Positions 10,533-28,199 of a stretch of 39,716 nt of DNA are shown here, one piece after another. This stretch comes from Clostridium sp. (lineage in GTDB: Bacteria; Bacillota; Clostridia; Lachnospirales; Lachnospiraceae): positions 1-39,716 of the forward strand of contig JAMPGS010000014.1 of the NCBI GenBank assembly GCA_023663815.1, given 5' to 3'. The notes under the pieces were generated by a model, which searched no databases, was not told where the DNA came from, and saw only the letters and a program-made list of their open reading frames with translations. The translations under genes were made by a program, and so were the position numbers. The stretch's first letter is position 1; each line of letters starts with the position of its first letter.

Positions 10533-12482
10533 CTATCCAAAATTCTGTACTATCTTTGCCTGATTACTCGCAAACACACTGCGCTTATCATTGTAAAACC
10601 GCAGAAAATCATCGAGAAGCTCGTGCCCATATAAACTCCCATTACTGTTCACTGCCCGAACAAAAGGCGCGTGAAACATTTCGCTGCCATTCGACCATAT
10701 CAACACATAACAGGCGTCAGAATCTGAAACTATATCCAATAATTTTTCAAACCACTGCAAATCAGGACAATCCTTGCGCGGTAAACCGGTCACAAAATCC
10801 CCCAGCGCAGGCGTCGCCATATTTATACCCGTCTCTGTAACGGCCAATAGCTTGTCATGCTGTGCAGCAAATTTCCCAAGCTTTGAAAGTTTGTCAGAAA
10901 AATCTGAAAACCACTCGTCGCTGTCCACCAAATCAATCTGGCAGTAATTGTCATACCCAATTATATCAACATAAGCATCCCCCGGATATCGCGCCAGAAT
11001 TTCTGCCAATTCCGGATTTGCAGCCGGGCTGTATACATATAAAAGATTGTGCACCTGCTTCTGATCCCGCAAATATTCAACGGTATAACGAAATACCTTT
11101 TGGTAAGTTTCCGCATCACACGTTGACGTCCCCCACCAAAACCACGTTCCAGTTCCTTCATGAAAGGGACGGAACAAAATTGTGCCGTTTACCTGCGAGG
11201 CATAATCTGCAATCATATCTAAATATGCTAAGAACTGAGCGTTGTATGAACCGCCTTGCAAAATGTCCATAGGGCTGCCGCTTTTGTCCCTTGCAGTTGA
11301 CGTTGAAAAATCATAGCGGGCATAAGACGGTTCCTTATTTTTCTGATAGCCGGCACGCAGCTTAACCTGCGAAAAATTCGGCATATGGCAGGACAATGTT
11401 ATCATCGAGCCTTGGGACAAACAATAATTAGACAGATTTGCAAGTGCTTTCACATTCGCCGCAGGTTCCCCCAACGCATCAATATTGATAGCTTCCATTC
11501 CCTGCTGCGCAAATTGTTTATTCCAGCTTGTGCTGTTGAATTCTTCTCCCACCAGCGACAGCCCGTCAAATCCAATCACCCCAGCCGGGGAACCTGTGAT
11601 ATCCTCTATATCAGAATTCGTCAATCCATTGAGCGGCGTTTTCACTGTTCCGGCCTTGCTGCATGGACTGTTTTGGTGTCCAAAAACAACATGGTTAGTT
11701 TTTCCAAGCGCCGCCAGATATTTCGCTGTATCCACTGTTGCCGCCGACGCTTTCGTATCCGTCAGCGTCACTCTCGGAAACGTCTGAAGGCTGCCGTCTT
11801 CAAACGCCAGTACCTCGCCCCGTATGGAAACCACCGTCAAATCCTGCCGCGGAACAGTAGTCTCCACCGACACGCCGTCGCTCATATCCGCCGTATACTC
11901 AAGCTTTGGATTTTCCAGCCGCACTATGCCTTTATAATCACATTGTGTCCCCGCTATAAAAACTTTTACGCCGGTGACCGATTGATTTATCGCCTGCCCA
12001 TAAGGAATTCCCTTCGTCCATACGCCGTTTATATCCGTATCTGCTATACCGGAAATTGGCACGACTACCTTGCTTTTATACCATACCGCCCCATTTTCTG
12101 TAATAGACTGCGTAAAGTTGATTGCCCGAATCTGTGCAGACGTTTCACATTTCGTCCAGCGCTGCTTATCTCCTATTAAAAGTATAACCTCAACATTCAT
12201 GCGCCCTTGAAATTGCGGTTTTACAGACGATTGTATCAATAAATCTGCTGTAAACATAATCCCTTCCCGCGGGACGTCGCTAGTCGTCACATCCAAATTA
12301 AAATTATCGCCCATCCAATCCCACTTACTTCCCGGATTAAACGCCGCCGACAATGACGCTGCATAAACGGACTGCGGCGCCCGCGCATAACCGCTCAATA
12401 TCCCGGTCAACAGCACTAATAAAATTCCATATTTAAGTTTCCTACTTAGATTTTTTGTAAACATTTCTTCAAAAATCCCCAC
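10533..12482 (-). CDS. Secreted GH26 family endo-beta-mannanase-like hydrolase
   Basis: The 649-aa protein has an N-terminal signal peptide (hydrophobic KYGILLVLLTGILSGYA, probable cleavage after SVYA). A roughly 150-residue beta-rich region, probably carbohydrate-binding, comes next, then a C-terminal GH26 catalytic domain. The acid/base glutamate lies in RPFHEGTGTWFWWG near residue 437 and the nucleophile in LLAVTETG near 546; GYDNYCQIDLVDSDEW is also typical. GH26 enzymes cut beta-1,4-mannans, but some act on other beta-glycans. Inside a biosynthesis operon it may trim or release the polymer. GTG at 12482 has AAAGGGGG 7 nt upstream and is preferred; ATG at 12464 is possible. It overlaps the flippase gene end by 37 nt. 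Confidence 0.87.
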   Translation of the reverse strand: MGIFEEMFTKNLSRKLKYGILLVLLTGILSGYARAPQSVYAASLSAAFNPGSKWDWMGDNFNLDVTTSDVPREGIMFTADLLIQSSVKPQFQGRMNVEVILLIGDKQRWTKCETSAQIRAINFTQSITENGAVWYKSKVVVPISGIADTDINGVWTKGIPYGQAINQSVTGVKVFIAGTQCDYKGIVRLENPKLEYTADMSDGVSVETTVPRQDLTVVSIRGEVLAFEDGSLQTFPRVTLTDTKASAATVDTAKYLAALGKTNHVVFGHQNSPCSKAGTVKTPLNGLTNSDIEDITGSPAGVIGFDGLSLVGEEFNSTSWNKQFAQQGMEAINIDALGEPAANVKALANLSNYCLSQGSMITLSCHMPNFSQVKLRAGYQKNKEPSYARYDFSTSTARDKSGSPMDILQGGSYNAQFLAYLDMIADYASQVNGTILFRPFHEGTGTWFWWGTSTCDAETYQKVFRYTVEYLRDQKQVHNLLYVYSPAANPELAEILARYPGDAYVDIIGYDNYCQIDLVDSDEWFSDFSDKLSKLGKFAAQHDKLLAVTETGINMATPALGDFVTGLPRKDCPDLQWFEKLLDIVSDSDACYVLIWSNGSEMFHAPFVRAVNSNGSLYGHELLDDFLRFYNDKRSVFASNQAKIVQNFG

Positions 12483-13990
12483 TGTTCCACCCCCTTTGCC
12501 CATAAATACCGCCATTCCTTCGTGCGGTAAAATGCCAATAACACAGTCAATCCGTAAAGAAATGTACAGAGAATCCCCCAAAATATCCAATCTATAAAAC
12601 GCTGTATTGGGAATCTAATATGCAGTGCCCACAAAATTACGCTGTCAATAACAAGCACAGCCGTATGCGCGGCCCGCCATATATAATATTTCGCAAACTT
12701 ACCTTTCCAGCCTTCCATTACGCCATATCGAAAAAACACAAGCGGCTCAACCCAAAAATTAGTGAGCAGCGTGCTTACGATAGTGCCCGTTACCACACCG
12801 GCAATACCAAAACGCCCCACAAGCGCAATTGAAACCACAAGATTCAGCAATGCTTCCGCAATTGGCTTATAACGGTCATACCAGTAAAGTCCCATTCCAT
12901 CCCGGAATCGCAGGGTCATCTGACGCATCCCATGCAAATAAAAGTCTACAACAATTAGCAGCATCGTCAGAGACGGCAAAACATAATGTTCGCCAAAGAA
13001 AAGCCGGATAAAGGGATTAAACAGCACAATCATGCATAGCGCTAACCAGCCGTATAATAAGGACAATAGAAAATCCAGCACGCTGTGTATTTCACATATC
13101 CGTTTTTTCTCCTTTGACGCCGCCAAATTGCCGATTGCCGGGGAAAAGGAATTATAAACATACGCTGTCATCACGCGGATACTGTTGAGCACCATCTGAT
13201 AATTGGAGTAAATACCTACCGTTGCCAATCCCTGAAAAGTAGAGATAATAATATTATCAGTATGGGAAACCAAAACGCCTCCCAATCGATGAATTGACAG
13301 AGCTCCCACCTGCCGGAAAATATCTTTACAGCTTTCCCGTGAAGGATAACCTTTGCGGTTATTTTTCAGATATGGATAACGCCGGTCAACTATCCTTGAA
13401 AGAATCAGATTTGCCGTCAACTGGGAGCACATTTGAATGGCAAGATAGACATAAAAATTTTCAAGGCATACAATTACGATCATTTGCAGCAATATCTGTA
13501 CGCTTCGTACTGCCTGCGTGACGGCTGTCGTCCTCCATGCCTCTTGATTTGCAGTAAGTATGGCCTGCTTATAAGACAGAAAATAACCCGCCACCGTATC
13601 GAACAAATACATGCCGTATATCAACCGCAATTGCAAACCGTCTCCGCCCTGCACAAAATATGGCAGCGCTGGCATCAATATCAATCCCAGTGCAAGCACT
13701 ACAATGCCCACTATCCCATACAATACCCGATAGAGGTTCATCAAACGGCATATTTCTGTTCTATCGCCGTTAGCGGCCGGTTTGTACAACCCGTAAAGCA
13801 TTGCTATTCCAATACCAAGCTCCGCAAGAGATAGAACCGTCAGGATATTTGAAAATAGCCCGTTTACGCCAAGATATTCCTGCGTAAAATGCTGTACAAA
13901 TAACCTTCTTGATGTAAACAGCAAAACCACATTGATAAGCTGTCCAACACAGGAAACGGTAAACGTAAGCAGGGAGGAACGGGTTCTCAT
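12446..13990 (-). CDS. Oligosaccharide flippase (Wzx-like)
   Basis: This 514-aa membrane protein has about 12-14 hydrophobic segments and begins MRTRSSLLTFTVSCVGQLIN. It contains EYLGVNGLFSNILTVLSLAELGIG, a typical early motif of Wzx/MOP-superfamily polysaccharide transporters (the ELGIG turn), plus a central VSHTDNIIISTFQGLATVG segment found in many Firmicute flippases. It should move undecaprenyl-linked repeat units across the membrane, to be joined by the Wzy-like polymerase encoded upstream. GAGGT lies 6 nt before the ATG. The 3' end overlaps the mannanase start. The substrate specificity is not predictable. Confidence 0.88.
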   Translation of the reverse strand: MRTRSSLLTFTVSCVGQLINVVLLFTSRRLFVQHFTQEYLGVNGLFSNILTVLSLAELGIGIAMLYGLYKPAANGDRTEICRLMNLYRVLYGIVGIVVLALGLILMPALPYFVQGGDGLQLRLIYGMYLFDTVAGYFLSYKQAILTANQEAWRTTAVTQAVRSVQILLQMIVIVCLENFYVYLAIQMCSQLTANLILSRIVDRRYPYLKNNRKGYPSRESCKDIFRQVGALSIHRLGGVLVSHTDNIIISTFQGLATVGIYSNYQMVLNSIRVMTAYVYNSFSPAIGNLAASKEKKRICEIHSVLDFLLSLLYGWLALCMIVLFNPFIRLFFGEHYVLPSLTMLLIVVDFYLHGMRQMTLRFRDGMGLYWYDRYKPIAEALLNLVVSIALVGRFGIAGVVTGTIVSTLLTNFWVEPLVFFRYGVMEGWKGKFAKYYIWRAAHTAVLVIDSVILWALHIRFPIQRFIDWIFWGILCTFLYGLTVLLAFYRTKEWRYLWAKGVEQWGFLKKCLQKI

Positions 13991-16303: not shown

Positions 16304-17441
16304 GATTTTTCCTTTCGCATTGATACGTTATCGTTTCATGAATAACTCGAAGATATCCTTCTATCGCCTGTTTGTCAGTAAAATCCAGCGCCCGCTGCCG
16401 AAGAGCTTCGCGGTCTGGGTTCCATGTAAGCGCACAGAGAATTCCCATTGCCAGCGCATCAGGATTTCCGGGTTTTACTAGAATACCAAATTTCCCCTCC
16501 TGCAATATTTCACGGGGGCCGCTGGGACAATCTGTGCTGACTATCTTAGCCCCCACTGCCAATGCCTCCACCAACACGCTGGGAAGTCCTTCATACCGGG
16601 AAGATAAGGCAACAACGTCCGCCTTGCTAAAATAAGCGGCAGGATTTTGCACAAATCCTACAAAATCAACTGCTTCTTCTATCCCGCTATGTTTTACCTT
16701 CTCTACAAGCTGCTCCCGCAGCTCGCCGTCACCAAGCAAAATCAGCCTATAATCCCCCTGCGCTCTCAATAGCCGCAACGCATCCAGCATCAGCGTATGG
16801 TTCTTTGCCTCGCAAAACCGCCCCGCCAACACGATTACCTTAAATTTCCTGCCCTCTTCCAACCATGGATGCTGCGGTTCCATCTCTGTAAATTTCCAAA
16901 ATTGTTCACTGATTATGGGATTATATACCGTAACAACCTGCTCAGGCGAGGCATTACACAGCGCAATATAATCCCTGCGCACAGCTTCCGAAACGGCAAT
17001 AACCTTATCATAACGCCGATTTAACAAAGGAAACAACCATTCTCTGACACGCTGAAAGCTATGCACCTCCTGTGAAAGCGTGCTATGTACAACTGAAACA
17101 AGCGGGATACGCCGCCGAAGCATATAGGTGGTTAAGGCTGCAACCTGACTCATCTCCGCCGTAACCGACAAAAGCACATCAAACTGTCCCGGACGCAGTA
17201 TTTTCCGCAGCCAGCAGATATTTCCAAAATTTTTACGAATCTTGCCTTTTTCGGGCAGGCCCATATTGAGAATATGCACTTTAGAGCTCACCATTTGCTT
17301 TACCGGCCCCTTGTCATGCCGAATTAAAATACTGACCTCATGTCCCTGCCGGGCAAGCTCGTTTGCTAGGATAACCGTCATTTTTTCTGCACCCCCGCCG
17401 TCAAAGCGATGGAAGAAAAAGCAAATACGCAGTTTATCCAT
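16272..17441 (-). CDS. Family 4 glycosyltransferase
   Basis: The 389-aa GT-B protein begins MDKLRICFFFHRFDGGGAEK, with the glycine-rich loop and GAEK typical of GT4 enzymes. The C-terminal donor-binding half has VIVLAGRFCEAKNHTLMLDA, VDFVGFVQNP and SSRYEGLPSVLVEALAVG, including the conserved E-x7-E motif. It should transfer a sugar with retention of configuration onto the lipid-linked repeat unit. GGAGG lies 6 nt before the ATG at 17441, so that start is preferred to one at 17471. The start overlaps the polymerase gene by 8 nt, and the end overlaps the phosphotransferase gene. Donor and acceptor are unknown. Confidence 0.9.
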   Translation of the reverse strand: MDKLRICFFFHRFDGGGAEKMTVILANELARQGHEVSILIRHDKGPVKQMVSSKVHILNMGLPEKGKIRKNFGNICWLRKILRPGQFDVLLSVTAEMSQVAALTTYMLRRRIPLVSVVHSTLSQEVHSFQRVREWLFPLLNRRYDKVIAVSEAVRRDYIALCNASPEQVVTVYNPIISEQFWKFTEMEPQHPWLEEGRKFKVIVLAGRFCEAKNHTLMLDALRLLRAQGDYRLILLGDGELREQLVEKVKHSGIEEAVDFVGFVQNPAAYFSKADVVALSSRYEGLPSVLVEALAVGAKIVSTDCPSGPREILQEGKFGILVKPGNPDALAMGILCALTWNPDREALRQRALDFTDKQAIEGYLRVIHETITYQCERKNHAQKADTSLG

Positions 17442-18741
17442 ATTCCGCCTCCGCATTATAGTAATCTTCAAAATGATACGCCATCACAAGCAACGATAGC
17501 ATCATATTCAGTTTGTTGTAATAAAGTGCATTTTCTGTCAGAAACGTCGTACAATTTGCCACAATAAAACACATTGCCAGCACACCGTGTAATCTATCCG
17601 TCTCAGTTTTCAGATCGTGAAAAAAGTAATTTTCTTTATAGTTTAAAAACAGCAACATCCAAATTAGGAACCCAAAGAATCCTAATTCAATATACTGACG
17701 TAAATAATCATTATGTATATCACGGATAAGATAGCCTCTATACTCTTGAACCAAATTACCTTCCTGCATCATACGCGACACATAGCCTGCGCCTTTTCCA
17801 AGATAACCTATTCCCACCTCATAATATGGACGAAGCTGTCCCCAAAAATGTGCGCGGGTATTTGTATTAATGCCAATTGATTCCAGCCAGTCCATCACGC
17901 CATAATAACAGCCAATAACATAGGCAAAACCAAACAATACAAGCATTATACATAGAATATGCGCGGCATTTTTTGTTTCCCGCGCATGAAGAAACAGCAA
18001 CAATATTCCTACTACAAAACCGGCTATAATTGACAGTAAAACACTGCGCTTAAGTCCTAGCAAAAAACATGCTCCCGCAAATAGAAACAGCCACCACTCC
18101 TGCTTAAGCATGGAAGGACATACGCCTCCTTGTTTTCGAAGCCTGTAATCAAATATTTCTTCCAAAATCTGATAGAGCAGGAAAAAGCCAAGCATATAAG
18201 CATAATTTAGCGATTCAAAACTTTTCATAATTGGCCCGGTCTTACCAGTAAAGGAAACAATCAGCTCAATATATTCCCGAAAAAATGGCCCTGCACCGTT
18301 GTCAAGTATGGCTTCCACGATATATATACCATTGGCAAGCAGTAATGCAATCATCATCAGCCGTACTCCCTCTCTGCCAAATAAATATATTGTGGCGGCC
18401 GCAGCTAACACGCCAATCAATGAATAAACAATAAAAGAACTTCCGCGTGTAATGATATTAAACCGAGAAAGAGAAAGCCCCCATACCAGCATAGAGTATA
18501 ATTCAATCCAAAAATAATGTGCGCTAAGCCGCCAACTGTAACGCAGCGTAATCGCCATTCGATGTGTATCTGGATACACAAGAAATATTGTAAATGCAAA
18601 CACAATAATTGCAATTGCAAACAGTAACTGATACAGTATACCAATACCGCCTATTGTCATATCCTCGTTTGTAAAGTAAAACATCGCGCATGCCAGCGCC
18701 AAATAAATCATCCTCAGCAAAAAGCCTTTCAGATTTTTCAT
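17434..18741 (-). CDS. O-antigen ligase/polymerase-like membrane protein (Wzy-like)
   Basis: The 435-aa protein has about 11-12 hydrophobic segments and one large extracytoplasmic loop in its second half with DIHNDYLRQYIELGFFGFLIW, the hallmark of the Wzy/WaaL polymerase-ligase fold. It most likely joins flipped repeat units into a long chain. It lies between the Wzz-like proteins and a glycosyltransferase, the expected position for a polymerase. The ATG overlaps the stop of the Wzz-GGDEF gene (ATGA), and GAGGG lies 7 nt upstream. The closest alternative role, ligation of finished chain to an acceptor, cannot be excluded. Confidence 0.85.
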   Translation of the reverse strand: MKNLKGFLLRMIYLALACAMFYFTNEDMTIGGIGILYQLLFAIAIIVFAFTIFLVYPDTHRMAITLRYSWRLSAHYFWIELYSMLVWGLSLSRFNIITRGSSFIVYSLIGVLAAAATIYLFGREGVRLMMIALLLANGIYIVEAILDNGAGPFFREYIELIVSFTGKTGPIMKSFESLNYAYMLGFFLLYQILEEIFDYRLRKQGGVCPSMLKQEWWLFLFAGACFLLGLKRSVLLSIIAGFVVGILLLFLHARETKNAAHILCIMLVLFGFAYVIGCYYGVMDWLESIGINTNTRAHFWGQLRPYYEVGIGYLGKGAGYVSRMMQEGNLVQEYRGYLIRDIHNDYLRQYIELGFFGFLIWMLLFLNYKENYFFHDLKTETDRLHGVLAMCFIVANCTTFLTENALYYNKLNMMLSLLVMAYHFEDYYNAEAEYG

Positions 18742-20891
18742 CGGCCTGCCCTCGCCGTTTCTAAACGGCTAATTAAATCGTCAAGCGCTCTGTTTCTCTC
18801 CGGTACTTCATAAATTTCATAATCTTTATCTCTTTCCGTCTTTTCTGCTTCTAACACAATGCTTTTCTCTATCTGGGGATTTGAACACTTTTCAATTGCT
18901 CTCATCAGCAAAGCCTTAATCTGATAAATTGAATCATTTTCACTTTCCGCAATGCCGTAATGATATTCAATTTTACATTCCGTCTCTTTATTGTAATTGC
19001 TGACAATGCTTGCCGCATACTGCATACAGGCTTCCGCCTGTCCATAAGAGGTATTTTTCACAAAAACAATAAACTGCCCTAATCCGTTTACGGAAATAAA
19101 ACTGTCGCCTACGCTGGCAAATGCCGCCTGCAGAACCTCAACCAGCTTACGCAGCATTTCATCGCAGGCTTCCACGCCATATTTCTCGTTTTTCTGCCGT
19201 ACTTCGTCCGCTACAATAGCAATACAACTGATATGTTCAGGCAAAATGCGGTTAGAGTAGCCCTCCATATAAGAATCACATGCGCTGCGGTTGGGAATCT
19301 GAAACTTGTGATCTACATAAACATGGTAATGGAAAATTTCGCCAATCCGGCTGAGCACAATGACTGCAACTGCAAGCAGTACTGCAAACATAATACTCAC
19401 AATGCCGCTATATACCATTAAATTATTTCCCGGCTGGAGAACAACATTGCTGCCAAGGCTGATATTGGCCGCCCCCGCATATTCGTTATATTCTGACATT
19501 GTTTTGTTTAACAAACGGTAGAGCTCATTTAAACGTGAAACCACACTGTCAAGCAGTTCTTCCGCCTCTGCGCTGGAACCAGACGCTGGAAGAATGACCG
19601 GCTGCATAGACTGTTCCGTCTCTTCATTAGAAATGTCAGCTTCTTCATCGGAATCCGACAAATCATCAGAAACCGACGAATCCTCATCAGAATCCGTCAC
19701 ATTTTCATCAGATACTGCCGGCTTGTCATCAAAAACTGCTATATCCTCTCCGGATGCAGCTATTTTCCCCGAAAATATATCAATAATATATTGGCAATAG
19801 TCTATATTAATCTTATCATATTCCACCGACGTATTGTTTTTAACATAATCCTCAAGCAACACGTCATACTTTACAGTTTCGTCCGGCCGTTCCCATTTCA
19901 CGCCTGTGGAGCCGTCTTCGCTTTGCTGCAAATAGCGGTAATAATCATCATCCACATCATTCAAAATATATTCGTAAGTAATATCGGTATTTCCTGATTC
20001 CCGCATCATCTGGACATAAGCGTTGATAATATCCGTAATTGCCTGAGACTGCGATGTATTTGCATTATTTGAAATCTGATAATCCTCAATGCGTTTTTCA
20101 TATTTCGATATTAGAACATCTTTATCACGGCTGACACGGTTATTTAAGATATACGCATAAATATTGGGAATATCAATTTTATAAATGGTATCAAACTCAC
20201 GGTATATATCCATATAAGTATGCCCGGTTAAAGTTGAACGATAATAATAAAAGGGACTATTTTGCATAGACGACAGTTGATTATAAAGAGAATCAAGCGT
20301 ATCTTTCACATTCTCATCAACAATCTCTATCATTTCAAGATAATCATAATTACCATCATAAAGACCGGAAAGGTTGTTGACAATTGCTCCGCCGCCTATG
20401 TGATTCTCAGCGTAATCGGCAAGAAAAGCATCAAGCATATTGTCAAGCACCTGCCGCGCAAAGTTAGCAGGCTGATCTGAATCCTCCTTGCTGGCGGTAA
20501 AGGAAACCATATACTTGGTTGCCTTTATTGTTGATTCCTCCCCTGCATCGTTCTGTGCTTCCTGCATGGCTTTTTCTTCTTCGGAGAGAATAGGCGTTAC
20601 CACCACCTGTGAACGGATTTGATCCAAATTATAAGAATCATAGTCAAGCCCCATCCGTTCAAAGACATCCTGCATAACCGATACGGAATAAATTTCTGAA
20701 GTATCAATTTCCTCGCCGTCCGGGGAATACCCTTCCGAAGCCCTTGCGTTCGTGTATTCAATAATCGCGGAAACCGTATAGTCCTGCTTACTCGTGAAGT
20801 ACTCATAAGATGCCAGTCCTGCAAGCAGCGCGCCAATGATAATGAGTATCTGAAATTTTCGGATATATGCCAATGGACTAAACTTCTGCAT
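18738..20891 (-). CDS. Wzz-like chain-length protein fused to a degenerate GGDEF domain
   Basis: The 717-aa protein begins MQKFSPLAYIRKFQILIIIG with a membrane helix, as in Wzz/CapA adaptors. A large extracellular region follows, containing an acidic Ser/Asp-rich stretch around residues 377-430, then a second helix near 491-517. The cytoplasmic C-terminus (about 525-680) aligns with GGDEF domains: DHKFQIPNRSACDSYM matches the DxLTGLPNR start, EKYGVEACDEMLRKLVEVL matches the YGHxxGDxxL helix, and GLGQF replaces GGDEF. The first metal-binding Asp is also lost, so cyclase activity is not expected. It may bind a nucleotide or c-di-GMP, or act as a protein scaffold. AAGGGAGG lies 7 nt before the ATG at 20891. 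Confidence 0.85.
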   Translation of the reverse strand: MQKFSPLAYIRKFQILIIIGALLAGLASYEYFTSKQDYTVSAIIEYTNARASEGYSPDGEEIDTSEIYSVSVMQDVFERMGLDYDSYNLDQIRSQVVVTPILSEEEKAMQEAQNDAGEESTIKATKYMVSFTASKEDSDQPANFARQVLDNMLDAFLADYAENHIGGGAIVNNLSGLYDGNYDYLEMIEIVDENVKDTLDSLYNQLSSMQNSPFYYYRSTLTGHTYMDIYREFDTIYKIDIPNIYAYILNNRVSRDKDVLISKYEKRIEDYQISNNANTSQSQAITDIINAYVQMMRESGNTDITYEYILNDVDDDYYRYLQQSEDGSTGVKWERPDETVKYDVLLEDYVKNNTSVEYDKINIDYCQYIIDIFSGKIAASGEDIAVFDDKPAVSDENVTDSDEDSSVSDDLSDSDEEADISNEETEQSMQPVILPASGSSAEAEELLDSVVSRLNELYRLLNKTMSEYNEYAGAANISLGSNVVLQPGNNLMVYSGIVSIMFAVLLAVAVIVLSRIGEIFHYHVYVDHKFQIPNRSACDSYMEGYSNRILPEHISCIAIVADEVRQKNEKYGVEACDEMLRKLVEVLQAAFASVGDSFISVNGLGQFIVFVKNTSYGQAEACMQYAASIVSNYNKETECKIEYHYGIAESENDSIYQIKALLMRAIEKCSNPQIEKSIVLEAEKTERDKDYEIYEVPERNRALDDLISRLETARAGR

Positions 20892-20892
20892 C

Positions 20893-22290
20893 TCACAGCC
20901 TCCCTTTTTGTTTGTATATATAAGCGCCCCTACTGCGTAGAGCTTTCTTTTGTTTAGGATATGCAATAAACAATGCTATGGTTGCGATAAAAAATCCTGC
21001 TGTCAAAATCCCCCCCTGCTTTATACGATATGAAGATTTAAAAGAACGTCCCGATGGAGTAATTACAAGGTTATTCCTGACATTTGTCTCGTCATATTCC
21101 TTAAGTATCTGCTGGGCGCTGTTTGCAACATCATATAATTCCTGCTTTGCCGTTTCCAACAGTTGATTTACTGCTGTAAAACTCTCATCACTGCCCTGTC
21201 GGAGCTGCCCAATTTCATAATTGTTGGTTTCAATCTTTTTTTGCAGATCTGTCGCGCTTTGCATAAAAGATTCTGCCTCGACTGCAAAATTATCCACCCC
21301 AACCTTCGTGCGCCCCATATAAAACTCACCGTTTTCATCACGGGTTGGAACGAGGACAATGCTTGCCATATCACGTTCATAAAAGTTAATTGCATTCAAC
21401 CGCACCTCATATGCCGCAAGATTTTTTCTATAACTGGTATTTTTGACAGTATTATCATAATTCAATCGTGAAATATATTGCTGCCTGTTTTCCGAGACGC
21501 CGTTTGCAAGAACATATGCCCGCAGCCGTTCAAGGGTTACATTTTTAAATTTTCCGGCGCGCGTCCCCACATCCCCAAAATTCTCCCCGGAAGAGGAACG
21601 AAAGGTTGGATTGTCAAGCTGGCAGCCCTGCATATATTCCTGAATCTTGGAAGCCATTTCGTTCATCAAACTTGGCTTATCAAGATAATCCACCGCATCT
21701 ATAAGGGCGAGATCCACCTCAAGCACGTCCGTATTGCGTCCGTAGGCTGCGTTAAACCGCTCATTGTAAACCTCCGCAATGGTATCTACTGTTTCCCTTG
21801 GGTTCAGCCATATACTTTTGGGAATGGCGGTATAACGCAATACGTACTCCGTGGAAACATAATACTGCTCAGCGGAGACTTCGCTTCCAGCCGCAAGCGG
21901 AACTACCGAAAGGGTGCTTCGCAGCTGCCGCACAGATAACTCTGATCCCAAACGCTGAAGCGTCTCCTCAAGTACCTCGTCGGAAATAATATCATAAGTA
22001 TTAAAACGCGTGCTGTTGGGATTTAGTCCCTGAGAAGCCTCCTTATAATTAAAGCCAATGATGGTGCTTGCCTCAGTCAAGTTGCGCAGTAAGTTTGTCC
22101 CCATAAAAAGGCCGAAATACACCGCTGTCAAGAGGATAATCACCGGCGCTCTGCGCCATAGACCGCTCGCCCCGGCGCTGATGCGCGACTGCAGGCTTTG
22201 CCTTCTATTAAACAGCGATAACACCGCCAACGCTGCAATTAACACCGGAAGAAGGTATACCGCATATCGAATATATTTTACAATTTTCAT
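20893..22290 (-). CDS. Wzz-like membrane protein, partner of the GGDEF fusion
   Basis: The 465-aa protein has two N-terminal hydrophobic segments (about 8-27 and 48-66), a long extracellular region and a C-terminal helix, GGILTAGFFIATIALFIAYP, followed by a basic tail. Its early region (SQGLNPNSTRF, then IISDEVLEETLQRLG and LRSTLSVVPL) has the same order of motifs as the next gene (ASEGYSPDGEE, VMQDVFERMG, IRSQVVVTPIL), so the two are probably diverged relatives that assemble together. The family sets polysaccharide chain length with the polymerase. Unlike classical Wzz it has an extra N-terminal helix. AGGAGGG lies 6 nt before the ATG. One nucleotide separates its stop from the next start. 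Confidence 0.75.
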   Translation of the reverse strand: MKIVKYIRYAVYLLPVLIAALAVLSLFNRRQSLQSRISAGASGLWRRAPVIILLTAVYFGLFMGTNLLRNLTEASTIIGFNYKEASQGLNPNSTRFNTYDIISDEVLEETLQRLGSELSVRQLRSTLSVVPLAAGSEVSAEQYYVSTEYVLRYTAIPKSIWLNPRETVDTIAEVYNERFNAAYGRNTDVLEVDLALIDAVDYLDKPSLMNEMASKIQEYMQGCQLDNPTFRSSSGENFGDVGTRAGKFKNVTLERLRAYVLANGVSENRQQYISRLNYDNTVKNTSYRKNLAAYEVRLNAINFYERDMASIVLVPTRDENGEFYMGRTKVGVDNFAVEAESFMQSATDLQKKIETNNYEIGQLRQGSDESFTAVNQLLETAKQELYDVANSAQQILKEYDETNVRNNLVITPSGRSFKSSYRIKQGGILTAGFFIATIALFIAYPKQKKALRSRGAYIYKQKGRL

Positions 22291-22292
22291 AC

Positions 22293-23198
22293 TTAGCCCT
22301 CCTGCTTGCCGTCAAACGGTACAACGTCGATTAAAACTAATTCCGGACGGTTATTCACCCGTGGAATCCCTGTATGCCCCCCAAGCCCTCTGCTCACAAC
22401 AAGCGTCGCTTTCTCAAGCTCATACTTACCGCCGCTGTAACGCGGGAAAAAACCATCGTCCACATGATATAGCCCTCCAAGAAAAGGCAGCCGTATCTGT
22501 CCGCCATGATAATGCCCTGCCGCCGCCAACTCGGCATCCACATCAAAAAGCTTTTCATAAAAAATGGAAGGAAAATGAGAAACCACAATCCGAAAGCCAT
22601 TGCTTTCCTCAAATTTCTTGACCTCTTCCATATCCAGTCTGTCCGCCTCCTCAGCTTCACAAGGAAACACCCCAAGCGTAACAGGATTGCCGCGGATAAC
22701 GATATCCTCGCACCCAACATATAACATAGGAACGCCAATTTTCATAAGCTCCACATCAAGCGCAACGTTTTTGTCGCCGCTGGCATACATTAATACGCCC
22801 TCGTGATTGCCCAGCGTATAGTATATCGGCGCAATACGCTTGAGATTTTCACATAGCTCCAAAACAACATGTATATCAGTATCATCCTGATTAACCATAT
22901 CACCGGCAAAAAGAATCATATCCGGCCCGCTTTGGCGGATTGCTTCTACAAGCTCATAATTACCTGCTCCAAATTCACGGTTATGCAAATCGCTGAGCAG
23001 TGCAATGCGGAAATTTGATTGAACCCTCTCCGACTGCACCTGATATACCGAACTCTCAAACCGCTCATTCCCCAGCTTATTTGCTGTGCACAACGCCAAT
23101 ATAAGAACCAACAGAAAGAGAACTTTCTGCACCCGTGCTAAGCGCAGCTTTTTCCGAATATAAAGCGATTGTTCCAATCGAAGATCAGCCACATGCAT
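22293..23198 (-). CDS. Membrane-anchored metallophosphoesterase
   Basis: The 301-aa protein has one N-terminal membrane segment (VLFLLVLILALCTAN, about 25-40), then a calcineurin-like phosphoesterase domain. The metal-binding motifs are ALLSDLHNREFG, MILFAGDMVNQDD, YYTLGNHEG, VVSHFPSIFY and AAGHYHGGQI. It probably faces outward and hydrolyses a phosphoester or diphosphate, perhaps a polyprenyl or glycan-linked phosphate. In the place where many Gram-positive capsule operons have a phosphatase/kinase pair of the CpsB/CpsD type, this operon has this gene next to the Wzz-like genes; a related role is speculative. The start overlaps the preceding gene by 14 nt. Confidence 0.85.
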   Translation of the reverse strand: MHVADLRLEQSLYIRKKLRLARVQKVLFLLVLILALCTANKLGNERFESSVYQVQSERVQSNFRIALLSDLHNREFGAGNYELVEAIRQSGPDMILFAGDMVNQDDTDIHVVLELCENLKRIAPIYYTLGNHEGVLMYASGDKNVALDVELMKIGVPMLYVGCEDIVIRGNPVTLGVFPCEAEEADRLDMEEVKKFEESNGFRIVVSHFPSIFYEKLFDVDAELAAAGHYHGGQIRLPFLGGLYHVDDGFFPRYSGGKYELEKATLVVSRGLGGHTGIPRVNNRPELVLIDVVPFDGKQEG

Positions 23199-24290: not shown

Positions 24291-24590
24291 TTACGCCTTG
24301 CTTTGATACCGCTCCCGCCTTTCACGGAGTCTTCGCTGAAGGGAAGATTCAACCTCCGGTTCAGGTTCAGGTCCTTTCTGCAATTGCTCGTTTTCCTTTC
24401 GCAGACGTTTAATCTCACTAATTGCTTCCTCTATTAACTTCTGATTTTTTCGATTTTCCTCTAGGAGTTTCTCCCCTTCACGGCTGCGCTCTTCTAATTC
24501 CTCTTCTAGCCGCTGAACATATCGAATCACATCCGCCCTGCGATAACCGCCAATCAATGTCCTCCGAAATAATTTCTGTGATTTCTTCAT
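24291..24590 (-). CDS. Short DivIVA-like coiled-coil protein
   Basis: The 99-aa protein starts MKKSQKLFRRTLIGGYRRADVIRYVQRLEEELE, the N-terminal DivIVA motif (aromatic residue, glycine turn, then a helix with V-x3-V spacing). A charged coiled coil runs to about residue 75, then an EPEPEPE run and a basic tail. DivIVA-type proteins sense membrane curvature and recruit partners to poles or septa. It is related to the longer DivIVA-like protein at 27292-28149. GGAGG lies 4 nt before the ATG at 24590, which overlaps the stop of the GT26 gene (ATGA). It is probably a membrane-associated scaffold for this operon's machinery; the partner is unknown. Confidence 0.75.
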   Translation of the reverse strand: MKKSQKLFRRTLIGGYRRADVIRYVQRLEEELEERSREGEKLLEENRKNQKLIEEAISEIKRLRKENEQLQKGPEPEPEVESSLQRRLRERRERYQSKA

Positions 24591-25357
24591 GACGCCTCCT
24601 TCCAATACTTCAGGACCAGCCGCAGAATTTTCATATCATCGATAAAGTAGCGCCGAAACAATCTTTTGGGTTCCTGAAGAAATCTATAAAACCATTCTAA
24701 TCCGCTTCGGCTCATCCATGCAGGACAGCGTTTGACCTCGCCCGACAAAAAATCAACCGTTGCGCCTGCACAAACCGATACGGGGGCATTATATCGGCTG
24801 CGGTTTTCATATATAAATTTTTCCTGTTTCGGACAACCGAAGCAAACAACCAGAATATCAGGCGACGCCTCATTGATGGCCCTGCATAATCTCTCAACCT
24901 GCCTAGAATCTTTCTCAAATCCCATGGGCGGGGAATAACCATCAACATGAAGCGCCGGATAGCTCTTCTTAAGCTGCGCGCAGGCATTTCGCAACGACGT
25001 TTCGCTGCCTCCGGCAATAAAAACGCTGTATCCTTCTTCCTCCGCCCGCCTGCACAGGCTGGGGACAAAATCAGAACCGGTAATCCGCTCCGGCAGCGGG
25101 CAATGAAATAACTTTGAAAACCAAATCAGCGGCATCCCATCGGCAAGCACGTATTCCGCCGTATCAATTATGTTTCGCAAAAGCGTGTCCTTTTCTGATT
25201 TTAAAACCACATCAACATTCAGAAAAACCAGACTTGCAGGCGCTTTGTCCCGAATATGTTTCATTACCGCATCCAACAGCATATCCCTGGTGACCGCTGA
25301 AAAGTCAATCCCAAGTAATCGGATACACCCATCCCGGCGCGGTTTTATAGCGTTCAA
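24587..25357 (-). CDS. WecG/TagA/CpsF family glycosyltransferase (GT26)
   Basis: The protein is 256 aa from the TTG at 25357, and shows the GT26 signatures: LLGIDFSAVTRDMLL, EYVLADGMPLIWFS, VFIAGGSETS, VCFGCPKQEKFIYEN, CAGATVDFLSGEVKR and LEWFYRFLQEPKRLFRRYF. Family members transfer an N-acetylmannosamine-type sugar onto undecaprenyl-linked GlcNAc, an early step of teichoic acid or enterobacterial common antigen assembly. Here it probably adds the second sugar to a primed lipid; the priming enzyme is not in the window. GGGGAGG lies 7 nt upstream, and the TTG overlaps the gmhA stop as TTGA, so the rare start is well supported over an ATG at 25405. Confidence 0.92.
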   Translation of the reverse strand: MNAIKPRRDGCIRLLGIDFSAVTRDMLLDAVMKHIRDKAPASLVFLNVDVVLKSEKDTLLRNIIDTAEYVLADGMPLIWFSKLFHCPLPERITGSDFVPSLCRRAEEEGYSVFIAGGSETSLRNACAQLKKSYPALHVDGYSPPMGFEKDSRQVERLCRAINEASPDILVVCFGCPKQEKFIYENRSRYNAPVSVCAGATVDFLSGEVKRCPAWMSRSGLEWFYRFLQEPKRLFRRYFIDDMKILRLVLKYWKEAS

Positions 25358-26004: not shown

Positions 26005-27295
26005 CTCCTATCCCTTCCTTCCCCTGTAAAAATTGTGCAAATTCAAGTAAATCATAAAAAGAACGCTCTCCCACACAGCCGTAAAGCCCTGCAGTGTGGC
26101 AGCCTGCCGCTTCCCCCGCCTTCATATCCCGCTCATTATCCCCAACCATCCATGACGACGCGAGATTTATATGAAACCGCTCCGCCGCTTTTAGCAGCAT
26201 CCCCGGTTTTGGCTTACGGCAAGTACACTCTATTTTATATTCCGGACGCTCTCCAAAAAATCCCTTGTCTGGGTGGTGCGGGCAAAAATAAACTCCGTCC
26301 ACATAAGCTCCCATCTGCCCAAGTAAGGTTTCCATCTTACAATGGACCGTTTCCAGTTCTTCTAAGGTCATTTCTCCCCGCGCAATGGTGGGCTGATTTG
26401 TCACAACAATCACAAGCCATCCTATTTTGTTAAGCAACGCAATCGCCTTAGCGACGCCCGGAAGCAGCTGAAACTGCTCAATGCTATGTAAAAACCCCAC
26501 TTCTTCATTGACAGTCCCATCGCGGTCAAGAAATACAGCCCTTTGGAGCTGTGAAAGGCTTCGCAGCCTATTGCGCTGTAAATCTTCCTCCGCTTCACGG
26601 CAGCGCTCCGGCGTCCCCACATCCTTCACATACTCCGGTGAATTATAAGCATAGAGTAATCCATCTGGAATCATTGGACGTAGCACTTCCCGGTCAAGAT
26701 CGAGAAATTTGGCATTTGCTAACAGGCCTTGCGCTCTTAACCATGAAAACAGCTTCGGTGAGAACAGATGAATCCCTGCATTGACTCGGTTGCAGTACCA
26801 TTGTCTTTTATCTTCCCGGTGCAGCCACCCAACCACCCGGTCTTCCTTATTGGTCTGAATAAGCGCGCTGTCATAGGGGTGACTGTTCGGGTGTGTTAGA
26901 ATCGTTGCTATTCCGCCATTTTCAAGGGTGCGCACATGCGCTTCCCAAAAACGCCAAAGGTCAACCTCAAATAATAGGTCGCCATTGAGGAGCAGGAAAT
27001 CCTCTTGCAGCCGTTCTTGCAAATAATACAATGCGCCCGCAGTGCCAAGCGGCTTTTCCTCAACAATATAGGATAGCTGTATATCCTGCCACATTCCGTT
27101 TCCAAAGTGATTTTCAATTATTTCATGCATATGCCCGGTGACAAGTATTACTTTTTTCACGCCCTGTCCGCGCAGGCAGCAAAGCTGCCTTTCAAGCACC
27201 GGCACGCCGCCAAGGGGTATCATCGGCTTAGGGATATCGGCATGTAATGAAGCAATCCGCGTTCCTTTGCCTCCGGCAAGAATTACCGCAATCAC
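25982..27295 (-). CDS. Fused heptose 1-phosphate guanylyltransferase and heptose bisphosphate phosphatase
   Basis: Residues 1-235 form a sugar nucleotidyltransferase (HddC-like): MIAVILAGGKGTRIASLHADI with IPKPMIPLGG, LLNGDLLFEVD and VNAGIHLFSP. Residues 250-420 form a HAD phosphatase (GmhB-like): FLDRDGTVNEEVGFL, VVTNQPTIARG, zinc-site residues in YFCPHHPDKG and CTCRKPKPGM, and MVGDNERDMKAGEAAG. The phosphatase removes the 7-phosphate from heptose 1,7-bisphosphate, and the transferase makes the nucleotide-activated sugar, probably GDP-linked because of the HddA partner. The start is GTG, overlapping the DivIVA stop (GTGA) and preceded by AGGGGTGAT. The fusion couples the last two steps in one polypeptide. 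Confidence 0.9.
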   Translation of the reverse strand: MIAVILAGGKGTRIASLHADIPKPMIPLGGVPVLERQLCCLRGQGVKKVILVTGHMHEIIENHFGNGMWQDIQLSYIVEEKPLGTAGALYYLQERLQEDFLLLNGDLLFEVDLWRFWEAHVRTLENGGIATILTHPNSHPYDSALIQTNKEDRVVGWLHREDKRQWYCNRVNAGIHLFSPKLFSWLRAQGLLANAKFLDLDREVLRPMIPDGLLYAYNSPEYVKDVGTPERCREAEEDLQRNRLRSLSQLQRAVFLDRDGTVNEEVGFLHSIEQFQLLPGVAKAIALLNKIGWLVIVVTNQPTIARGEMTLEELETVHCKMETLLGQMGAYVDGVYFCPHHPDKGFFGERPEYKIECTCRKPKPGMLLKAAERFHINLASSWMVGDNERDMKAGEAAGCHTAGLYGCVGERSFYDLLEFAQFLQGKEGIGDEAGTAS

Positions 27296-28149
27296 AACGA
27301 TATATCACCCCTATTGTAAGAATTGCCCTCCACCACAACGTCCCCTTTTACCATTTTTTGGAGTACTTCCAATTCTTGCGGAATTCCAACAACTGACTGA
27401 CTTAAACCTCTGCGTGCCTTATCAACCCCCTGATAAACCTTGCTTAACATATCCAAATATTCCTGCAAATGCTGTATGACAAAATTCAACTGACCGATAT
27501 TTTGAGATGCAAACCGCTGCACCATAGCTTCCGCCGTCTGCTTTTTCAGCTCCGCTTGGTGATCCGCCTGACGGAGTATATAGTTTGCTCTGGAATCAGC
27601 CTCAGCCAAAATATGCTCCGCCTCCACCTTGGCGTCAAGCATTACATCTGAAACGACAGCCTTTTGCTTTTCATAAGAGGCGATACTTTCTTCGAGTTCC
27701 TTGCACAATGCATCATAATGTTCCTTTGCCTCGCTGCTTTCCGCATCGGCAAGCGCTTTTTCAAGAGAGCCCTTTTCCTGCCGAAGCTGTTCTAACTCTT
27801 CTTTAAAAGCTGCATATTCTTCCTTTTCTTTCCGAAGCTGCTCCAGTTCAGCTTTTAATTTATCATATTCTTCATTCCGGGAATCCAATTCATCAAGCAG
27901 CGCTTCCGTTTCAGTCCTTTCCTGCTCCGCTTCCTTGAGCAGTTCTTCCATCTTATCTACCCTGCGCTTTTCCTGCTTTAACTGTGTTCCTTTATCCAAA
28001 AGTTCATTTTCCAAGTCGGTTTTATCCTTGCGAAGCTGCTCCATTTTCTCAGTCAAAGAATCCAAATATTCTAGCACGTCGTTCTTTCGGAACCCCCCAA
28101 AAGCTGACGTCCGAAAGGTTACCAGCCCGTATTCGTCATTTTGATTCAT
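27292..28149 (-). CDS. DivIVA-domain coiled-coil protein
   Basis: The 285-aa protein has the N-terminal DivIVA motif VTFRTSAFGGFRKNDVLEYLDSL and then about 150 residues of uninterrupted coiled coil rich in E, K, L and Q. A segment VMLDAKVEAEHILAEADSRA, typical of the C-terminal part of DivIVA/GpsB-like proteins, follows. AGGAGG lies 7 nt before the ATG at 28149; the reading frame from 28188 lacks such a site. It sits between hddA and hddC-gmhB, an unusual position for a cell-pole or septum protein. It is related to the shorter protein at 24291-24590. It may localise polysaccharide synthesis or help place septa; not a metabolic enzyme by sequence. Confidence 0.85.
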   Translation of the reverse strand: MNQNDEYGLVTFRTSAFGGFRKNDVLEYLDSLTEKMEQLRKDKTDLENELLDKGTQLKQEKRRVDKMEELLKEAEQERTETEALLDELDSRNEEYDKLKAELEQLRKEKEEYAAFKEELEQLRQEKGSLEKALADAESSEAKEHYDALCKELEESIASYEKQKAVVSDVMLDAKVEAEHILAEADSRANYILRQADHQAELKKQTAEAMVQRFASQNIGQLNFVIQHLQEYLDMLSKVYQGVDKARRGLSQSVVGIPQELEVLQKMVKGDVVVEGNSYNRGDISL

Positions 28150-28199
28150 TATCTGTCCTCCTGCCATATCTTTTATAGCGGTCCACATACATCTGCTGA

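Follow-up and report, generated by a model that had tools for sequence, protein, structure and literature searches.

Does a protein that would set the length of a bacterial surface polysaccharide carry its own signal-responsive domain? The question is raised by a 39,716-nucleotide stretch of DNA from Clostridium sp. (Lachnospiraceae; assembly GCA_023663815.1, contig JAMPGS010000014.1, positions 1 to 39,716), hereafter the window, which encodes a 717-residue chain-length-type (co-polymerase) protein, WzzLong (P0001), that ends in a degenerate GGDEF tail. In the known Gram-positive Wzx/Wzy systems, chain length is coupled to a tyrosine kinase; if a co-polymerase bore domains of the cyclic di-GMP (c-di-GMP) family, control would lie at another point, on the polymer-length-setting protein itself. 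The start codon of the WzzLong gene is the ATG at 20891, preceded at a distance of a few bases by GGGAGG, and the gene is laid out as follows (dN, nonsynonymous divergence; L001, a locus encoding a relative):

18741..20891, reverse strand: WzzLong, chain-length-type protein with a degenerate GGDEF tail
18738-18740, reverse strand: WzzLong stop codon
20790..20891, reverse strand: residues 1-34, short cytoplasmic start and first membrane helix (about residues 15-33), from hydropathy
19557..19766, reverse strand: residues 376-445, acidic extracytoplasmic linker, fast-changing (dN 0.73 vs L001)
19350..19421, reverse strand: second membrane helix, residues 491-514, with the hydropathy peak near 495-514
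18876..19349, reverse strand: residues 515-672, degenerate GGDEF domain, from Pfam, a PDB profile and conservation
19203..19214, reverse strand: VADE, residues 560-563, at the DxD position of the tail
19071..19085, reverse strand: GLGQF, residues 603-607, at the GGDEF signature position
18741..18875, reverse strand: residues 673-717, a variable stretch and then the conserved motif LDDLISRLETARAGR

On balance, we favor the tail being a non-enzymatic input (of a guanine nucleotide, c-di-GMP, or a partner from the c-di-GMP pathway) to Wzx/Wzy polymer assembly. A reading made earlier from the sequence alone had placed a degenerate GGDEF domain after the second membrane helix, and this identification held: Pfam PF00990 (GGDEF) matched residues 525-665 with 34.1 bits (E 2.9e-8; gathering score 23.8), although NCBIfam TIGR00254 scored 18.1, below its own cut-off of 37.4. 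A GGDEF fold is suggested by comparison of a sequence profile of 11 full-length homologues with PDB sequences, 25 of which matched at E ≤ 0.01, the best being 6eib (E 6.5e-10). All but one of these (24/25) aligned to the tail, and most bear the name of a diguanylate cyclase or GGDEF protein; 4wxo and 4wxw (“Uncharacterized protein”) and 3qyy (“Response regulator”) carry other names, and the remaining match, an RNA polymerase subunit, aligned outside the tail.

The survey of other genomes proposed in the sequence-only reading found the fusion conserved. Of the 53 distinct WzzLong-type proteins gathered, 33 carry a GGDEF-type tail, 12 an EAL-type tail, and eight no tail. Tails were sorted with profiles seeded with seven and eight of these same 53 proteins, and Pfam, run afterwards on each, returned GGDEF in 33/33 GGDEF-type tails and EAL in 12/12 EAL-type tails (both at E ≤ 0.001), the EAL domain lying in the same place as the GGDEF tail; neither domain was found in the eight tail-less proteins at E ≤ 0.01. 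The PF00990 cut-off was passed by 11 of the 13 GGDEF-tailed proteins with scores, those of L040 (21.9) and L052 (21.7) falling below it. The 33 GGDEF tails reduce to 15 representatives at 70% identity, and 12 of them come from one close clade.

An active diguanylate cyclase combines GG(D/E)EF with a metal-binding Asp. The tail of WzzLong reads GLGQF, and the position of the first metal Asp, within VADE, is Val560, both as first described from the sequence; an active cyclase was rejected on this motif, and the tail should no longer make c-di-GMP, judging from these residues. Across the 33 tails, the fourth letter of the motif was Q in 21, S in 11, and N in one, and never Glu, whereas the third was G in 28, D in three, A in one, and K in one, such that both acidic letters were gone in 30/33. 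The degeneracy is therefore conserved in all 33 gathered proteins, and the alternative of a sequencing error or local variant was rejected. The first metal Asp was retained in 12/33 tails and replaced in 21 (once by Glu), and the residue preceding the motif (Asn602 in WzzLong) was Asn in all 33; R515 and Y522, at the junction with the second helix, were likewise invariant in the 33 GGDEF-tailed proteins (15/15 representatives). Also kept were the equivalents of PleD Asn335 (Asn568 in WzzLong; Asn in 32/33 tails) and PleD Asp344 (Asp577; Asp in 33/33), which in numbering and role we take to be guanine-contact residues.

The EAL tails share a different pattern of retention and loss. Nine pocket positions (Q, the E of EAL, R, N, E, the first D, K, the E of GVE, and the Q of QGY), which we take to be contacts to c-di-GMP or metal, were kept in 12/12, whereas the second Asp of DDFG was lost in 11/12 and the Glu of AEG in 10/12, with 10/12 tails lacking both of these catalytic acids. 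By analogy, most of the EAL clade is most simply read as dead receptors of the LapD kind. With the cut-off at 31.3, Pfam EAL scores were 122.4 (L054, which is also the protein of L083), 200.3 (L129), 203.2 (L128), and 111.5 (L123). On the WzzLong protein at L129:11173-13476 (forward strand; genome G740), the EAL tail is near-canonical (EALLRW, IDDFG, AEGIE, and QGY; 200 bits); nearly the whole catalytic set is kept there, and this protein may be a still-active phosphodiesterase on a co-polymerase. EAL domains stand in the same place as the GGDEF tails, and the scaffold thus appears to recruit c-di-GMP-family domains as such, which supports a link to nucleotide or c-di-GMP signaling.

In the mechanism that we propose, WzzLong would be the long partner in a two-protein co-polymerase, with WzzShort (encoded by the adjacent gene), of a Wzx/Wzy capsule or exopolysaccharide locus. 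The state of the tail would be altered by a guanine nucleotide (GTP or GDP) held in what was once the active-site pocket, by c-di-GMP, or by a c-di-GMP-pathway partner. The conserved R515...Y522 junction, together with the second membrane helix, would relay this change to the extracytoplasmic part, thereby altering polymer length or output. Ligand binding, signal transmission, and the chain-length effect are what we infer for the tail.

Weighing against this proposal are points from the tail itself, from the c-di-GMP proteins of the same genomes, and from the scaffold. In the tail, the I-site (RxxD) Arg upstream of the motif was found in 0/33 GGDEF-type tails. Classical c-di-GMP binding is unsupported because this Arg is missing, and a classical I-site c-di-GMP receptor was rejected; for the nucleotide- or c-di-GMP-sensing element suggested by the sequence-only reading, a signaling link gains support from the EAL tails on the same scaffold. 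D327 and K442 of PleD are both named in the accessible part of PMC3032553, and the position of Lys442 was Lys in 0/33 tails. With motif Glu, I-site Arg, and this Lys gone, the tail could also have lost the ability to bind nucleotides and may be no more than a module for interaction or dimerization.

Such a purely structural module, which would dimerize or dock a cytoplasmic partner (a glycosyltransferase, a DivIVA-like protein, or another GGDEF protein) with no nucleotide bound, seems to us possible but rather unlikely. It would accommodate the three losses just named, and the invariant Asn602, R515, and Y522 could serve packing; moreover, the GGDEF domain of PdeB docks on HubP, though it is also GTP-binding, according to the accessible text of PMC9061725. 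The retention of the PleD Asn335 and Asp344 equivalents speaks against it, as does the conservation of nine out of nine EAL pocket positions in every EAL tail, which structure alone does not predict. It is very improbable that the tail is an active, if unusual, cyclase (diguanylate or another nucleotide) whose active site has been altered. Variant-motif cyclases can be active, as for VCA0965 with AGDEF (accessible text of PMC3974145), and a minority of tails keep the first metal Asp; however, both acidic motif letters are gone in nearly all tails, the fourth letter is never Glu, the Lys442 position is never Lys, and in WzzLong the first Asp is Val.

Selection on the tail was assessed by pairwise dN, with synonymous divergence near or past saturation and often not computable, so that ratios are rough. 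Between WzzLong and L001, the GGDEF domain had a dN of 0.083 and the extracytoplasmic part one of 0.078, compared with 0.73 for the acidic linker and 0.38 for the final 45 residues; thus, the linker and C-terminal stretch change 8.7 and 4.6 times faster than the domain. The corresponding values for domain, outside part, and linker were 0.131, 0.134, and 1.37 relative to L002 and 0.108, 0.114, and 0.54 relative to L003. A decaying passenger without function, although eight related WzzLong proteins have no tail, is contradicted by this selection (the domain changes about as slowly as the extracytoplasmic part, and all three relatives agree in dN) and by the 33 tails forming one group over many genera with invariant residues, and is the least credible reading of all. 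Residues 673-717 are similar between WzzLong and L001-L003 and are probably helical, judging by their pattern. The conserved C-terminal motif LDDLISRLETARAGR, at 18741-18785, is common to the same four proteins and is possibly a docking motif.

Turning to the c-di-GMP proteins of the same genomes, the assembly containing the window encodes three other GGDEF proteins, two with canonical motifs, and two PilZ matches; all three GGDEF proteins are on other contigs, and no EAL protein was found in the assembly. GGDEF matches were present in 46/46 genomes examined, where in GGDEF-tailed genomes the tail itself may count. In favor of the proposal, a non-tail GGDEF match lay ≤15 kb from WzzLong in at least 11/46 genomes compared with 2.5 expected under uniform placement, a comparison in which the distance was chosen post hoc, uniform gene positions were assumed, and relatedness was ignored. 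By tail type, the counts were at least 5/12 for EAL (0.41 expected), at least 5/29 for GGDEF (1.75 expected; P 0.026), which is weak by itself, and at least 1/5 for tail-less genomes, one of which therefore also has a non-tail GGDEF neighbor. Canonical diguanylate cyclase genes were observed within WzzLong clusters at L124:17681-18892, L127:6195-7088, L130:14933-16315, and L186:11454-12608.

Regarding the scaffold, two membrane helices flank an extracytoplasmic domain beside Wzy and Wzx genes, as seen from hydropathy and gene context, yet the label “Wzz-like” given in the sequence-only reading was sustained only as a remote relationship. Pfam Wzz (PF02706) scored 11.9 bits on WzzLong, below its gathering score of 25.5, with a weak match at residues 14-50. 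The best score seen among tail-bearing proteins was 19.8 (L039), and 2/33 GGDEF-tailed proteins matched at E ≤ 0.001 (best 9.4e-5); one of the eight tail-less relatives passed the cut-off (L131, 28.2 bits), with L134 near it (24.6). Alignment of profiles with hhalign matched classic CpsC with the N-terminal halves of tail-bearing WzzLong at 86.7% probability (E 4e-6), with tail-less WzzLong at 93.6%, and with WzzShort at 91.8%, compared with 0.1% for tail-bearing halves against kinases. Without the first helix, the value for tail-bearing WzzLong fell to 15.5%, that for tail-less WzzLong to 12.5%, and that for WzzShort to 71%, with at most 1.5% for unrelated profiles against the family and 3.2% for CpsC against LCP; the N-terminal half had no PDB match at E ≤ 10, and among the 30 loci with flanks the CpsC profile matched only WzzShort of L041 (2.4e-5) and WzzLong of L042 (0.0022). 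Because the remote match falls without the first helix and the controls are lower still, WzzLong is called a probable distant co-polymerase, a remote Wzz/CpsC relative.

The genes around WzzLong place it in a Wzx/Wzy-type polysaccharide locus:

20893..22290, reverse strand: WzzShort (P0002), tail-less paralogue of the WzzLong N-terminal half, directly upstream of WzzLong
22293..23198, reverse strand: calcineurin-like metallophosphoesterase (P0003) with a hydrophobic N-terminal stretch
17434..18741, reverse strand: Wzy-type polymerase (Pfam Wzy_C, 33.8 bits vs 31.7)
12446..13990, reverse strand: Wzx-type flippase (Pfam Polysacc_synt)

WzzShort adjoined WzzLong in 29 of the 30 loci (as two open pieces in L082), and a metallophosphoesterase like P0003 was present in 25/30, making it a member of the WzzShort-WzzLong module; by eye, its basic N-terminus before the hydrophobic stretch suggests that the domain faces outside. 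A Wzy like that of the window was found in 18/30 loci. Within the polysaccharide locus, we also observed two DivIVA-like coiled-coil proteins (27292-28188 and 24291-24605, the smaller one below the cut-off), with BLAST matches recurring in L001, L038, L041, and L043, and a GH26-type glycosyl hydrolase (10533-12590) that also occurs in L001-L003.

The absence of a tyrosine kinase partner, noted at the outset from the sequence, extended beyond the window. In the assembly, which is 93% complete, no TIGR01007 kinase match exceeded the cut-off, with three matches below threshold, and profiles for bacterial tyrosine (BY) kinase, PHP phosphatase, and LCP proteins had no match at E ≤ 0.01 in the 30 loci, the kinase profile having been built from three sequences and some of the loci being cut by contig ends. 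Kinases over the cut-off occurred in 3/8 GGDEF-tailed genomes, all on other contigs. No kinase was found in any of the six tail-less loci examined out of eight, which weakens the idea of the tail as a direct kinase substitute; as no kinase was seen at these loci either, the tail would seem to have been added to a pair that lacks a kinase, not simply to have taken a kinase's place. The tail-less relatives also show that the WzzShort-WzzLong pair can exist without tail input.

Relatives of WzzLong were recovered at several taxonomic depths. Three close relatives with the same architecture were 71-76% identical over the best segment. In a family sample of 397 genomes, 98 matched at E ≤ 0.001, mostly to the GGDEF part alone, and the whole architecture was found in eight, with two candidates scored per genome: that of the window, G217, G371, G283 (two copies), G057, G163, G390, and G272 (a broken copy). 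In G272, the WzzLong gene at L044:9030-10511 is split into two open pieces. An order sample added the whole architecture in G529 and G565 and an EAL-tailed protein in G577. In a class sample, the N-terminal half was matched in 50/391 genomes at E ≤ 1e-10, and by frame length and tail class the tailed form was present in 31/391, comprising 20 with GGDEF (that of the window included) and 11 with EAL; a broad bacterial group is thus concerned. In a phylum sample, the N-terminal half matched in 5/398 genomes at E ≤ 1e-20, with a tail-length frame only in that of the window, and no viral relatives were confirmed in one scan.

A quick tree of 52 N-terminal halves, without a known root and with long branches that join one another, placed the GGDEF group on one side of a branch (support 82) and the EAL group likewise (support 100), whereas the tail-less group needs two changes. 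The tail types each form one group, and GGDEF and EAL may thus each have been acquired once on the WzzLong scaffold. Stand-alone degenerate GGDEF proteins of the GGNKF type, about 240-300 residues long, were observed at 18 loci (including L012, L014, L015, L028, L030, L031, and L033); they have hydrophobic N-terminal stretches, and their neighbors resemble sigma factors by eye. Recent capture of the tail from these proteins is without support, as the 33 tails and the 18 stand-alone proteins formed separate groups on a quick tree.

Extended to the class, our proposal would be that kinase-free Wzx/Wzy systems set polymer length via c-di-GMP-family domains fixed to the co-polymerase, a dead GGDEF domain in one lineage and EAL in another (mostly dead receptors, with L129 perhaps an enzyme), and capsule chain length would then be coupled directly to guanine-nucleotide or c-di-GMP levels; we advance this broader version tentatively, with a little less confidence than the reading of the WzzLong tail itself. 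The occurrence of GGDEF and EAL on one scaffold makes the signaling question testable with few purified tails. No report of GGDEF or EAL on a Wzz-type protein was found among the matches listed for the literature searched, although most subscription papers and all bioRxiv preprints lay outside the search, so that absence from print is not established; the accessible parts of PMC6851124 and PMC5772234 describe no such fusion.

Control of polysaccharide machines by c-di-GMP is known for Alg44, PelD, and NfrB, as given in the accessible portions of PMC8461298, PMC7112168, and PMC8669469. PelD, of the Pel polysaccharide system of P. aeruginosa and B. cereus, is described there as a membrane protein with a degenerate, non-enzymatic GGDEF domain that acts post-translationally on assembly (PMC7112168, PMC8461298). 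WzzLong is likewise a polysaccharide-locus membrane protein with a degenerate GGDEF domain; however, PelD is part of a synthase system, contains a GAF domain, and uses an RxxD I-site to bind c-di-GMP, whereas the WzzLong tails lack the I-site Arg (0/33) and the scaffold is a probable Wzx/Wzy co-polymerase. Alg44 is an alginate co-polymerase whose c-di-GMP-binding PilZ domain controls polymer synthesis (accessible text of PMC8461298), and it differs from WzzLong as a PilZ receptor, rather than GGDEF or EAL, in a synthase system. With CpsC/Wzz, which works with the BY-kinase CpsD, WzzLong shares two membrane helices around an extracytoplasmic domain, a Wzy-type neighbor, and a remote profile match; unlike CpsC-CpsD, it has no kinase in the 30 loci, a much larger extracytoplasmic part, a second co-polymerase, and a GGDEF or EAL tail.

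Most tail domains of the WzzLong family are predicted to be catalytically dead, as in the GGDEF-EAL proteins LapD and FimX, with which the EAL-tailed relatives may also be compared; in LapD, too, Gly occupies a metal position and Asp327 is altered (accessible text of PMC3032553). LapD carries both domains and acts on a periplasmic protease through HAMP, whereas the WzzLong family has one domain attached directly to the co-polymerase. By analogy with CC3396 and PdeB, the Asn and Asp retained in the GGDEF clade point toward the former active-site pocket: the WzzLong tail keeps Asn568 and Asp577, the equivalents of the presumed guanine contacts N335 and D344 of PleD. The GGDEF domains of CC3396 and PdeB are inactive, GTP-binding domains that control the remainder of their proteins, according to the accessible text of PMC4823724 and PMC9061725; unlike WzzLong, CC3396 reads GEDEF, PdeB keeps its GTP-binding residues, and both regulate an EAL domain of the same chain.

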